Notes under the pieces: generated by a model
What the model was told of the DNA's origin: nothing
What the model saw: the letters and a program-made list of their open reading frames with translations, nothing else
Database searches by the model: none
Translations under genes and position numbers: made by a program
Shown: piece by piece, positions 35,268 through 64,000 of the stretch
How the letters are laid out: every line of letters starts with the position of its first letter
Position numbering within the stretch: the stretch's first letter is position 1
From: Polytrichum commune
Lineage: Eukaryota; Streptophyta; Polytrichopsida; Polytrichales; Polytrichaceae
Assembly: GCA_950295325.1 (NCBI GenBank)
Contig: OX485805.1
Coordinates: 34,645,501 to 34,709,500 of the forward strand
Length of the DNA stretch: 64,000 nucleotides
Direction: 5' to 3'

Positions 35268-35804
35268 CAGAGCCCAACATTTTTCCTTTAAATTGCACCC
35301 ATACCCAGACCATGCCCATTAGCAGCGACCTATGCCCACCCATGCCCACCCATGCTATTTAAATTGCACCCATGTATTCAAAAATTATGTAATGTGTATT
35401 ACCCGCCTACACCAAGTCTTGGTTGGATTGGACAAATAAAAGGTCGTTCACTATTGCTGGCTTCAACCCGAAGCGCTTCTTGGTTAGCGTATTCCCTGCA
35501 TCCGAGAAGATAGACTCCGATTTGGAGTTGGATGCAGGGATGCACAAAACCGAACGCGCCACGCGCGACATGATGGGGAATGTGGGGGCTTCTTTCAACT
35601 TCCACCACAAGAGAACACTCAATTTAGCAGTGGTATCCAATATGCTTTGCTTTAGCCCATGCTCACCCATGAACAATAATATCGAACCCATGCCCACCCA
35701 TGAATGATAACATCGCAGCCATGCCCACCCATGAACAATAATATCACACCCATGCCCACCCAAAACCCATGGGCATGGGTATGGGCACCCAATGTAGGGC
35801 TCTG
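35268..35804 (-). mobile_element. Internally deleted hAT transposon
   Basis: The ends CAGAGCCCAACAT (left, plus strand) and CAGAGCCCTACAT (right, minus strand) are inverted repeats. The adjacent 8 bp are CTGGGTGA (35260-35267) and GTGGGTGA (35805-35812), a target duplication with one mismatch, as hAT elements make. GGGCATGGG/CCCATGCCC motifs fill both subterminal regions, including ~3.5 copies of a ~32-bp unit at 35655-35765, as expected of transposase-binding repeats. The only coding content left is the dimerisation-domain fragment at 35407-35634. Confidence 0.85.
35407..35634 (-). pseudogene. hAT transposase C-terminal dimerisation (hATC) fragment
   Basis: About 75 codons ending in a natural stop. 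The pattern is characteristic of the hATC domain: a WW pair, then FP and a V/ARSVL stretch, IPASNSKSESIFSDAG, an R-x-x-L-K-P motif and the final block LLFVQSN. This domain mediates dimer formation of the transposase. The DDE-containing RNase-H part and the zinc finger are gone. Upstream codons in the same frame come from the element's subterminal repeats and not from transposase. The frame is still open, which suggests fairly recent deletion of an active element or selection on nothing at all; I infer the former. Confidence 0.82.
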
Positions 35805-36384
35805 GTGGGTGAACAATCCTTCGCGTGTTCTTGAGGTTCATTTAGGTGTTCCGTCTAGTAATTTAGGCGCTTGCCTTCACATGATCCTCCTTGTTATATA
35901 ATATAGCAAACTCTAGCTCATTCAACCAGGATTTTGGTGATAGTTTGCAGTCAACTCCAGCATAGAAACTGGCAGGCTCACAACCACAGTAGACACCAAC
36001 TTACGCAAAACACATGTGCAAAGATAATATTATTTTCAAGCACTTAAAGAAACTGTACACTGTTTGGAGCCCTGCATTTACTAACCCTGCTCTTTTACTG
36101 CAAGGGAGGCTACCTACACACTGTCCTGGAATCTAAAGGGGCCCCTGCTGGAATGGAGTGATGACTACAAAGTGGAATTTGGATAATTCGGGTGATTCCG
36201 CCCCCAAGATTAGCAAACAATGGTGAACACCATCATGAATACAATTGGAAAACATCTGTGACTACTGTTGCCTTTGAGGCAGGCAAGCTTGGTGGAGCAC
36301 CATAAATGCATTGTGTACCTGTCCCCACTATGGGCAGAGGGAAAACAGACTGCCAATCAGCAATAGGTATCTTGTTCAGCAAAT

Positions 36385-42564
<6,180 letters not shown>

Positions 42565-42764
42565 TGCGCGCAACTCTGCGTTCTTCCCAGCGAGCTCCGC
42601 AAGTCGAAAGTTTAAGCTGCGCAACCCCGGATTATGTCGAGATTTCTGGTGCCGTGAGGGAGGAGGAGGGAAGCGAATCTCCAAGGCGACGGCAGCCAGG
42701 GTCGGAGCCGGTAGGTCGCCACGTGGCAGGAAGGTAGGTGCTCGTATTGGTAGCTAGTGGCTTC

Positions 42765-58903: not shown

Positions 58904-61900
58904 CTAACTTAGTCTCGGGCACGAACTTAGGTTCCTAGGCAGACAGACTCCCGGGAATCCCACCGCGAGCCAAGCAGCCCAATCCCACAGCTGCCATCGT
59001 TGCAGCGCCGCATCCGAAGTCCTGGTCACCGGAATCCGGCCCTCGAGAACATCAACCATGGTGTTTCTCAACGCAAACATCACGCTCTCGCCGCCCACCA
59101 TCTTCTCATACAACCGCTGCATGAACGCCCTGCACAGAGCGCTGTCCACGCTCCGAAGCGGCGCAAGCACTACGGGCACACCTGCCTGCAGGAAAGCCCG
59201 CGACATTCCAAGCAGCCCCTCCCCGGTTTTCGCCCCCAAGCCCACTTTGCAAGCTGACAACACGACCGCATGAGCGTTCATGGATCTCACGTCGTTGGCC
59301 ATGATCTCCGGGGTGAGGAATCCGAGGTTCTGAGCGTGTTGATGATGATTTGACGACGAGGTGTTGCGGCTTGTAGCTGGATCGGCTGCTTCGACATCGC
59401 CAGCTTCCACAGTACTAGCGCGGGACATGAACAGCACGCCTTGGGGGTACTCAGAGTTTACCTCGCCGTGACATGCGAAGTGACACCAGGAAGCCGACTT
59501 CATGACTGCAGTCACGTTCTTCAAGGTAGCCTGTTCTCGCGTGAGAGTAGTTACGACTGATGAGGCTTCGTCGTTAAGGGTACTCTTCGTCATGGTGGTA
59601 ATGGCGGCGATATCGGTGACCTCCTTGATCGAGTCGTCCAGAGGGACCTTGGCAACTCCCAACGGATTAGGATCAGCCACCAGTAGTATTGGGTTGGTTG
59701 TTGACGTTGTGGTCGTTGATGATGATCTTGAAGCAGTGTATTGGTGCGTGGCCCATCCGAGGGTGCGTAAGGAGGAGACCGTGCCGATGGGGTGCTTCTG
59801 GATCAAGTGCTTCGCCTTCTTGCCTGCAGGTTTGAGTGCTGCGAAGGGGACAAATGACAACCCCTGCAACAGTGCAGTTCCCAATGTATCAAGAGCTGTA
59901 GCCATGTTGTATTCCATGGTTTCGTGGAGAGATGATGGTTTTACGTATGGTAATGGTATATGTAGACGTGCCTAAATAGGTTACGTATCTTAATCGGACT
60001 CTCATATTTGAGTGGTATGTGGTTAGGCGTGGCTCCAACAACGGATACAAAAAGATGTGTTTAAAAGAGATTGGACTACATGTTCAGAATATTATAATCA
60101 TTCTAGGCTCCATACTCAACATAATTGGGGAGAGCTACATGACCATTTAATGAGCACAATAATCTTCACTTTGATAATGAATGAGATTTTCGTATCGGCT
60201 CCAAAAATTATGAGGAAAGTGGCTACGGCCTGGATTCGGATATGCTAACCATCTCGTACTAATCGAATGTTTCGTATCCTAATGGGCTACTCGGAAAAAG
60301 AAACCATTTAAGACCCATCTACCTTACGTGTCTACAATATGCTCAAAGGAAACAAGCTGACCATCAACAATAACGTACCTCATGTGGAATGAAGATGACT
60401 GGCTCCCCGTTGACCAACTGATCAGCAATGGGCTTGATGAGAATCCTATACAGGGCGTTTATTTTCTTGGCATCTGGATCTGGTCCGTTCCGTAGATCCT
60501 CAATTTGTCTCTCGAAGACAATTATGGCTTCAAACGCCTGTTGACTCTGGAGCATGAAGTCGTAGTGGGACTCCGACGTCCGTGGCCCGAACATCCACCT
60601 AAAATCCTCCAAAAATCCAGGAAGCTCGTCAGTGGCCAGGGAATTTTTGTAGTCAGCTAAGATATCAACAGAAAACATGGAGGGTAGAGTTGTTGATGCC
60701 TGGTTGGAGCTTGGGTCTTGCGTCCCGTAGCTATGCAGGACCCATATGAGCATATGGCGGCGTGTGAGAGAGTATTCCACAAATGTGACCATCTGAACCT
60801 CTGGATTTTGTTTTTTGATTGCATCTGCACTAACTGTCATGCAATGTTTTAAATGTCCCCATGCATACTCCTTGTCAAGGTCAAACCTCTTCCAGTCCAT
60901 TTTTTCCACGCTGTGATCATTAGAGAGACTATCGCCGTTCGTGTCCCTGAGCCACATCAGAAATAATTCAGCTTGTCTGTTCACAAGCGCTATTTTGATT
61001 TCAATTCTACCGCGCAATGGAACAGTTTTGAAATGCAGCGTGCAAAGTTTTCAAGATGAAGTATCACTTGTCTGAAAATTATTAAGAAGCATTGATTGAC
61101 CACATTAAGACGAATCAAATGCTTGTTTCATGTGAATGAGTAAGATTTTTGCTTCACCCAAATTTGCACCTTGCCTTCACGAGTTTCTCTAGATTGAATG
61201 TAAGGTCACGGCATCGCCCTTGCTCAGCAGCTATCAGAGCCTCCATAGCTTTGATCCCCTTTTCGCATTGATCAGTTGTCTGCATCACATTAGGAGATGA
61301 GCTTCTGATTAAGACTTATATGTAGATAATGGCAGAACGAGGATACACAAAGGCACGCTGCTTACCTATGCTTTCTCAGTATTAGTAATGTTTTCGCACT
61401 GCAATTTCAAAGCGCACCAATTGTGTTTTCCAAGTTGAACATAAGCAAAAGAAATCTACCAAAGAAAGTTAGTCCAAGTATGAAAATATGGAACGCGTAT
61501 CTAAAGTCGCTGTGGGAGTAAGATAATTTTTCTTGAAAAGGTGGAAAGAATAAATGAAAACATCTCATCCAGAAACTTTGATGTCTTCACAACATTGACG
61601 CCCTTGCAACTGTACTGAAATTTTAATGTCGTTGCTTGTGTTCTGCGAGAACATCAGAAGGAGGTTGAATCCTAAACCTGCTGATAAATTTGAAACAAGC
61701 AGGATTGCAGATTATTATAAAACATCTTCAATGATTCGAAGGTAATAATACGAAATTCGCTTGTCAAATTCCTTTCCATGAGGACCCGAGAACATGCATC
61801 GACGGCCTGCCTCAGTTCAGCCTCAGCCTCAGATAGTCGAGATTGCTCCATTAATGTTTCCCCCAGGGCTCCATGTAGTCTGCCAGCCAAGTACTCTTCA

Positions 61901-64000
61901 ACGGATCCATGTGCGTCCAATTCTTGCAGTCCTTCCCTGAACATTATCCACAATGTTTTCAGAGTCTACTAATGATTACACATATAGTGATTACACCCGG
62001 CCCACCTAATACTCCAATGAATTAAATCCCAATTAATATCGCACATAAGATCTGCACACAGGGTTTTATATATGAGTCGGTATTTTGAGTAATCCGGTAG
62101 GTCAGAACCACCTTGACTCTTAAACATCCAAAGTGACTAGTTCTCAAGCCACCAAAAAAGTTCACAGGTGTTAGAGTGACAGGGGTCACAGGCCAAAACC
62201 TCACCCCTTATGTCATGTATATATATTTTATGATCTTATGGTAATAGCTGCCTACTCAATTATCGTGTTGACATATTCATTCTTTAGCAGCAATAGCACG
62301 ACTATGGGCCGACATCGGAAAACTTAATGTTCATTACAGTATTGATTTCTAGAGCTATCAACAGAGGAAAAATAATGAAGAGAATGAGCAGGTTGGGCTT
62401 CTCATGACATCCTGTGGAACGTATTAGCCTGAGGAAATACATATGTTTACAGATATACGCAAACGAAGATATTCTAGCCTGTGTTATGAATGGGCGTCAT
62501 AACATTCTTAACCATCTGACGTGTAAGCAAACTGGATCAAATCCAGAAACTACACAATGCAAGTTGTTGTCTAGAAGAATCCGGAACGATTCAAATACCT
62601 GTAATAATTCTCTGCTGATAGAAAATTCCCCATGAGTGCAGCTAGATTCCCGCACGTCCAAGCTGCACTTGCAGCTCGGAAAGACAACTTGAGTTCCTTT
62701 GCAGCTTTCAAGGCTTCGCTACATATGGATTGTGCTCGTGGAAAATGACCACCGGATAGAAGTGCATCGCTCAGCCTCAAGGAAGTTGCGATCCAATTGA
62801 ACTTAACATAGAATTCGCAATGGCTGGATGAAAACTGTTCTTTAAGCAGTTTCACGGAAGTTTCTAGCTTACTGGTTGCAATCTTAAGGTGGTCATTCGT
62901 CCCGCAATTTGTACTGATCTGACCAGGGGATTTGCTTTTGCAGAGTTCCAGATATCCCTCAGCACCTAAGGAACACAAAGCACACAAGGCACACACGGTA
63001 AGATCTCGAGGTAAATGTGTATTGTGCACTGGTTCATTGATCCTGCATTGATCCAAAGACTCATAACTAGGAGCTATGCCGGCTGACGTCCAACGGAGGC
63101 CTTACGCTAATTATCGAATTTTTTATTTCTTGAAAAGTCCCAATTTCTAAATTGAAAGGCATTTCAGAAAGCGACTATCCAGGTCAGCACTGAAGGCGGA
63201 CTACAATACCACTGGTGCAGTTGTATTTCTAAGGTTTATATGTCGCAATTGTAAGAGGTTGTCATGGTATACATTCATAATATGAGCTCCTGAAAAAATT
63301 CGGAAACAATTTTACTGATAGTATATCAACCTGGTCTCGCCTAAACTTCAGCAATAAACTACACGTAAGTGTACAGCCATAATCTTACGGCTATCAATAA
63401 TGAGTAACAAATCATATCACCTCTTTGCATCTTGATCTAGTTAAAATAGGGCTCCTCACAATGCACTTGCACAATGCAAACCTTGTGAAAGATCAGATGG
63501 CTTGTGTAGAACAGTTGCCATGATGGCTCCATACAAGTTGAGGGCCTCATACCTTCGATAATGGCCGCGAGGACATTGTCGTCCTCCACAAGGACTGCAT
63601 TCTGCGTCAGAGTGTTTCGGGCATAATGGAGTTGTTTTTCTGCTTCAGGAATTTTCTTCTCATTCGTATACGTAGTTCCAAGCATGAGATGAAGGTTGAC
63701 TTTCGGACCAATCAATCTTTCCTCATCAGCCAACTTCAGAGCCTTTGTGCAACAATTGATCTTCTCCTCATTGTCTTCCAGCAAATCACACATTTGGATG
63801 TACTCCAGCAGAATTGCCATACAGATTTCTTTCAGCTTGGGGTTGGGCTGGTCAACAAACCACGAAACAAATTTTTGCAACATTGGCTTTGCTATACGAT
63901 GTTGAAAGTGCATTCTCAGCATCTCTACCATTCTATTCAAAGTGTATAGAGCAATCTCAACGTTTTCAAATGGAGTTACGGCTGATGCTGAAGAAGTCCC
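58904..64000 (-). CDS. TPR-CHAT protein (caspase-like/separase-like protease), 5' end outside window
   Basis: Exons in coding order: 64000(partial)-63553, 62965-62599, 61936-61678, [61455-61366], 61279-61170, 61006-60379, 59863-58904; all GT..AG with matching phases (1, 2, 0, 0, 2, 0). Without the bracketed exon the window encodes 923 aa plus stop. The upstream exons read as helical TPR-like repeats (ALKLADEERLIGPKVNLHLM, EALKAAKELKLSFRAASAAW, GRLHGALGETLMEQSRLSEA). The last exon is a CHAT domain: VPFAAL near its start, catalytic His in WCHFACHGE (coordinates ~59468-59470), catalytic Cys in VVLSACKVGLG (~59249-59251), then GLLGMSRAFLQAGVPVVLAP and a VD segment with an ALRNTM helix. CHAT proteases are clan-CD relatives of caspases and separase; TPRs usually bind regulators or substrates. 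An insertion rich in Ser, Asn and His (~residues 150-180 of the exon) separates the His and Cys blocks. The bracketed 90-nt exon ends in TAG. Substrate and role are unknown. Confidence 0.85.
59864..60378 (-). other. Last intron of the TPR-CHAT gene
   Basis: Donor GAG/gtacgt at 60379/60378, acceptor ctgttgcag/GGG at 59864/59863. It contains a copy of a dispersed repeat (59995-60300: ttgagtggtatgtggttagg, aaaagagattggactacatg) found also near 5650, 9800, 25650 and 43500. The intron falls exactly between the TPR-side linker (EPVIFIPHE) and the CHAT block GLSFVPFAAL. Confidence 0.8.
61366..61455 (-). other. 90-nt phase-symmetric exon ending in in-frame TAG
   Basis: Bounded by a good acceptor (tttctttggtag) and donor (gtaagc). 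The preceding exon ends in phase 0 (CAG/gtttag) and the following exon starts in phase 0 (gatgcag/ACAACT), so this exon reads in the TPR frame (ISFAYVQLGKHNWCALKLQC...). Its 30th and last codon is TAG. The other two frames also contain stops. Including it truncates the protein before the CHAT domain; skipping it leaves the full frame open. It could be a regulated poison exon, a single C-to-T (CAG to TAG) loss-of-function change, or an assembly error. Confidence 0.7.

Follow-up and report, generated by a model that had tools for sequence, protein, structure and literature searches.

The CHAT family is long established, and eukaryotic proteins that combine tetratricopeptide repeats (TPRs) with a CHAT domain are already known, as are those of bacteria, with fungi and animals among the organisms that have them. 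As excerpts of the relevant papers describe them, the linker and CHAT domain rearrange in Craspase, the complex of the type III-E CRISPR protease Csx29, and the catalytic dyad closes (PMC9729208); a TPR-bearing CHAT protease activates a gasdermin of Podospora (PMC12881547), fungal gasdermins being under CHAT control (PMC10197012); and TTC28 has a role in cytokinesis, with the function of its CHAT domain poorly understood (PMC12314368). Here we analyse a gene that is a further member of this group, located in a 64,000-nucleotide stretch (the window; contig OX485805.1, G000:C3:34645501-34709500) of the 408-Mb genome of the moss Polytrichum commune. No title listed in our searches deals with plant CHAT proteins, although most subscription papers lie outside their coverage and plant CHAT genes may well be in print. 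On balance we lean towards reading the locus as a functional nuclear land-plant gene for a TPR-CHAT protein, whose TPR part would restrain a CHAT protease of variant specificity.

Results

A sequence-only reading of the window had proposed that several spliced TPR-like exons are joined in phase to a C-terminal CHAT domain, and a CHAT profile search of the last exon had been set beforehand as a test of that proposal. The open frame at 59971-58904 matched the CHAT profile (PF12770) at 114 bits (E 1.2e-32, cut-off 24), and in-phase joining of the exon ending at 60379 lifted the score to 132.1 bits (E 3.6e-38, profile positions 3-288 of 289) in a predicted protein of 1393 residues, which bears out the domain and supports the predicted splicing. 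The TPR part held up less fully. TPR_2 reached 28.4 bits on the joined model (E 1.3e-6, cut-off 27) as the sum of weak repeats, none passing singly, the strongest of its stretches (residues 73-100) falling in an exon beyond the window, and every other TPR model fell below its cut-off. The window's own exons likewise stayed under the cut-offs for TPR_12 (28.9 bits, E 1.4e-6, cut-off 30.1) and TPR_MalT (27.2 bits, cut-off 45), and none of nine frames from the flank L001 (the 5' part of the gene and the region upstream) exceeded a Pfam cut-off, the TPR matches of frame 1903-2661 being among those below. The predicted joined protein thus has the TPR-CHAT architecture, with degenerate TPR helices on the N-terminal side, then a linker that contains an AExxRxxxL-like motif in the gene models, and at the C terminus a CHAT domain of caspase/separase type with its His-Cys dyad. 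A search of the whole genome with the 449-residue TPR part matched only the gene's own exons.

The gene lies on the minus strand, and the interval 64000-58904, first taken to contain it, holds its 3' part. The predicted model spans 58904 to about 66334 (extended coordinates) in 11 exons, of which six are wholly or partly inside the window, and approximately 2.3 kb of the predicted gene extends beyond the window's right end into L001; the start codon and the border of the first exon are uncertain. All exon borders are predictions from our own gene finder, which was trained on exons of the same six CHAT genes discussed below and uses preset splice weights. Two of its runs differed in the acceptor of the last exon (59863 versus 59971), and we preferred 59863 because it makes the joined CHAT profile match continuous and places the intron where the paralogues have theirs. 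The resulting junction, from 60379 (GAG/GTACGT; slashes mark splice positions) to 59863 (GCAG/GGG), is in phase 0. Further upstream exons proposed by the gene finder were not believed. The features are collected in Table 1.

Table 1. Predicted features of the TPR-CHAT gene in the window (window coordinates).
Feature	Position	Strand	Basis
Exon running to 64413, past the window (L001)	63553..64000	-	Gene model; second copy not found in genome
TPR-like exon	62599..62965	-	Holds most of best TPR_12 stretch (698-765)
TPR-like exon	61678..61936	-	Best stretches of TPR_10 (786-814) and TPR_8 (782-809), both below cut-off
Exon with AEQGRCRDL	61170..61279	-	Gene models; corresponding region of predicted paralogues has AERSRTNAL and VERGRARTL
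Exon with linker and start of CHAT (KINALYRILIKPIADQL...VIFIPHE)	60379..60946	-	Gene model; CHAT match from residue 1046; acceptor at 60946 less certain
Phase-0 intron within CHAT (PHE/GLSFVPFAAL)	59864..60378	-	Ends GT...AG; 5/6 predicted CHAT genes agree in place and phase
Last exon, most of CHAT domain, TAG stop at 58906-58904	58904..59863	-	Pfam CHAT 114 bits; acceptor GCAG/GGG; intron place and phase common to four predicted paralogues
Catalytic His codon (WCHFACHGE)	59468..59470	-	His in 22/23 distinct aligned CHAT rows
Catalytic Cys codon (VVLSACKVG)	59249..59251	-	Cys in 22/23 distinct aligned CHAT rows
Arg codon at usual Trp place (LW of strand after Cys)	59153..59155	-	Trp in 21/23 distinct rows
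Ser codon at usual Asp place (LWxVxD)	59141..59143	-	Asp in 20/23 distinct rows

The PF12770 profile matched eight exons of the genome, distributed over six loci, such counts being lower bounds for large families, so that five CHAT loci exist besides that of the window. A phase-0 intron interrupts the CHAT domain at one and the same place in five of the six predicted genes (PHE/GLSF, PTE/LLAE, PDK/ILYR, PCE/VVAG and PDK/VCLQ); the model of the sixth, on C2, has no intron at that place. The common intron place speaks for the splice junction and also for common descent of the genes, and together with the LEAFY loci of the genome it upholds the assignment of the locus to a plant: this is a real, intron-rich gene of a land plant. 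A decaying copy on its way to becoming a pseudogene would account for the divergence of the window gene and for its lost conserved residues, yet we consider decay quite improbable, since the 1393-codon model without internal stop, its GT-AG splice sites and the intron place common to five of six genes argue against a pseudogene, even though a model built to stay open cannot by itself exclude decay.

Two of the paralogues have additions of their own. The paralogue at L002:1964-6802 (G000:C2:28487963-28492801, minus strand) has two PP2 (Phloem protein 2, lectin) domains followed by a long region and CHAT, with the second PP2 and the CHAT domain in a single uninterrupted frame (E 1.4e-10 and 5.1e-45, respectively), and looks like a fusion of a lectin sensor to a protease. 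That at L003:2990-4270 (C5:5218989-5220269) carries an insertion of more than 100 residues, rich in charged letters, between the CHAT His and Cys.

The His-Cys dyad is kept in all six plant copies. Dyad and strand counts were made on 23 distinct rows of a 25-row CHAT alignment, which includes two duplicates (L014 = L007, L018 = L010), and the sole distinct row that lacks both the dyad His and the Cys is L012. The sequence-only reading had called the dyad intact; the His and Cys are indeed in place, but that description was incomplete, as in the LWxVxD strand R and S stand in place of W and D. LWxVxD is a common pattern in the rows compared rather than a formal definition of CHAT, and the window copy departs from it. 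An excerpt of PMC9729208 describes recognition of the P1 Arg by separase D2151, with K670 at that place in the bacterial TPR-CHAT; the Asp of LWxVxD may be the counterpart of D2151. On that reading, the R and S of the window copy suggest an altered cleavage preference, or weakened activity.

Several results weigh against the preferred reading. The strand reads RSVDS in the window copy, whereas W and D are both present in the five remaining plant copies, and RSVDS fits weakened or lost activity equally well as altered specificity; the window copy also has the longest end branch among the six plant rows. The fold model described below is moderate (pLDDT 63.1, pTM 0.72, best-match TM-scores of approximately 0.4), a phmmer search of the Protein Data Bank (PDB) with the 355-residue last frame returned no CHAT chain, only two chance matches at E 0.5, both to flagellar P-ring, and at E 1 the gasdermin profile PF04598 matched nowhere in the genome, which is weak evidence as the control was detected only in E. 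coli, and there below the cut-off. A pseudoprotease or scaffold, in which the CHAT fold and dyad persist and the protein works through binding, perhaps like animal TTC28, would explain why only the window copy, of the six, lacks the W and D, and would suit its long branch. We regard this as a credible although unlikely alternative, against which stands the retention of both catalytic residues and their surrounding motifs (HxxxHG and SAC) despite wide divergence elsewhere. The bacterial CHAT protein L012:2028-5282, without dyad His and Cys, is likely a natural pseudoprotease as judged from its sequence.

The CHAT exon was modelled from a seven-row alignment (A2: the window exon and six bacterial rows, one of them, L012, without the dyad); a single-sequence fold of the 355-residue frame (pLDDT 37.7) was not used. 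In a Foldseek search of the PDB, the first matches were DdvA (8rot, 8rw5) and SAVED-CHAT (8tl0), at E 4.5e-05 to 2e-03 (8rot at 4.5e-05, 8tl0 at 2.5e-04 to 2e-03) and with TM-scores by query length near 0.4. There followed, weakly, metacaspase Yca1 (0.024), Dronc (0.027), separase 5mz6 (0.037) and caspase-3 (0.055). A caspase/separase-type fold (clan CD) is therefore supported by the model, in agreement with the kinship to separase and caspases that had been proposed. That the gene might itself be a separase, or part of one, would be consistent with the match to 5mz6, but it is almost certainly not one: the CHAT profile matches, Peptidase_C50 (separase, PF03568) is not among the listed profile matches for the frame or the joined model, and a Peptidase_C50 gene was found elsewhere, at C2:43.88 Mb.

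A scan of prokaryotic genomes with a six-row alignment and one peptide pattern gave 38 candidate stretches, six of which were confirmed (four cyanobacterial, one from Bacteroidota and one from Streptomyces). Four genomes behind these loci were searched at E 1e-5: three had 7, 10 and 12 matches, and that of Streptomyces had none. When the last exon was searched against plasmids by tblastn, 46 records matched, and 27 of the 30 listed were cyanobacterial. Two scans of viral contigs found no relative; a third, led by a bacterial alignment, found two loci, L025 and L026. The first of these (L025:1501-2529, IMGVR_UViG_3300029624_000238) encodes, on a contig assigned to the viruses, a CHAT protein whose SAC motif is intact. 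The PADLOC search gave no match for three proteins; it found none for the last exon and also missed a cyanobacterial TPR-CHAT protein.

Against PDB chains, the profile of the six CHATs matched DdvA (8rot) at E 0.0054, many caspase-7 chains at 0.045-0.39, and chains that we take to be Csx29 at 0.21-0.85. This is not a close sequence relation, and Csx29 was absent from the 50 fold matches listed of 563. The likeness to Csx29 raised by the sequence-only reading therefore stands for the layout and was otherwise over-stressed; the nearest prokaryotic relatives found are ordinary cyanobacterial TPR-CHAT proteins, with Csx29 more distant.

The six plant CHATs grouped together with support 91/92 in a 25-row tree (23 of the rows distinct), rising to 96/94 with 21 rows (without L012, L018, L023 and L025). 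L026, with a region of fewer than 200 residues, was left out of both trees, whose bacterial rows are a biased sample found via similarity to the query and whose only eukaryotic rows are the six plant copies. The cyanobacterial character of most of the nearest prokaryotic matches raises the possibility that the window gene was acquired independently from cyanobacteria, with an origin separate from the other plant CHAT genes. A grouping of the window copy with ten cyanobacterial rows was not rejected (p-AU 0.111), and the last exon differs in base composition from the remainder of the gene (GC 0.57, GC3 0.66, versus GC 0.44-0.52 in the other ten predicted exons). Such an acquisition nevertheless seems very unlikely to us in view of the single plant group and the phase-0 intron place common to five of the six predicted genes.

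Elsewhere in the window, 38650-42753 contains parts of a gene for a papain-family cysteine protease with I29 propeptide, and 35407-35841 a C-terminal dimerisation fragment of a hAT transposase, both on the minus strand. The LEAFY profile matched three loci in the genome, L027 (C1:40571425-40572195), L028 (C1:62298386-62299612) and L029 (C7:8635861-8637757). The best PDB match of L027 is 4bhk, presumably Physcomitrella LFY1, at 311 bits versus 281 for 2vy1, presumably Arabidopsis LEAFY. Two copies have MRDYVHC with GAWCQACY (D/C, type II-like) and one has MRHYVHC with GAWRQACY (H/R, type I-like), going by the letters that we take to define the two types at sites 312 and 345. An excerpt of PMC6588583 gives these as the LEAFY specificity sites and reports both types in mosses outside Bryopsida, with Polytrichum commune cited for the same. 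Taken together, the LEAFY loci mark the genome as that of a land plant, and probably of a moss not belonging to Bryopsida.

Discussion

If the preferred reading of a restrained protease is correct, the TPR part would bind a partner or ligand and keep the CHAT domain inactive; binding would shift the linker, join the His and Cys and permit cleavage of a specific substrate, as reported for Csx29 and, in the activation of a gasdermin, for a fungal TPR-CHAT protease. Animal TTC28, with its role in cytokinesis, is a further eukaryotic precedent. Near the active site, the replacement of W by R and of D by S may give the protein a substrate preference unlike that of the plant's other five CHAT proteins. 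The protein may act in regulated proteolysis or immunity; the likeliest field of action would be stress or immune signalling, followed by cell division as for TTC28.

Plant proteases with caspase-like folds are usually given as metacaspases and separase. A more speculative idea, which we hold with low confidence, is that the genome encodes CHAT sensor-proteases as a small family whose sensors are exchangeable (degenerate TPR or tandem PP2), amounting to a plant class of caspase-like immune receptors in which the window gene has an altered cleavage preference. No description of such a class was found in the literature searched. With its six intact-dyad CHAT genes, one of which includes plant lectin domains, this probably early-diverging land plant would offer a candidate system in which caspase-like signalling of early land plants could be tested, and gene knockouts are routine in mosses (Physcomitrium).

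Comparison with known systems

The cyanobacterial TPR-CHAT proteins (for example H1 of Nostoc, L007 of Lyngbya and L009 of Calothrix) resemble the window gene in having TPRs before a C-terminal CHAT domain, in the dyad and in approximately 24-34% identity over CHAT. They differ in being single open frames, and their aligned rows, except the degenerate L012, keep the W and D, unlike the window copy. DdvA (8rot) and SAVED-CHAT (8tl0) are the best fold matches of the CHAT model, but by their entry titles the former is a transmembrane anti-sigma factor and the latter a SAVED fusion that forms filaments. Csx29 has the same TPR-linker-CHAT layout and His-Cys dyad, as far as the excerpt of PMC9729208 describes it, and differs in the weakness of its profile match.

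Two eukaryotic systems were compared by description only, again from excerpts. The fungal CHAT proteases that activate gasdermin likewise join a repeat sensor and CHAT in one protein (PMC12881547, PMC10197012); they act on gasdermin, a match to which was not found in the moss genome by the weak test above. TTC28/TPRBK and the coral TPR-CHAT proteins are, like the window gene, eukaryotic and place TPRs before a single CHAT domain (PMC12314368).

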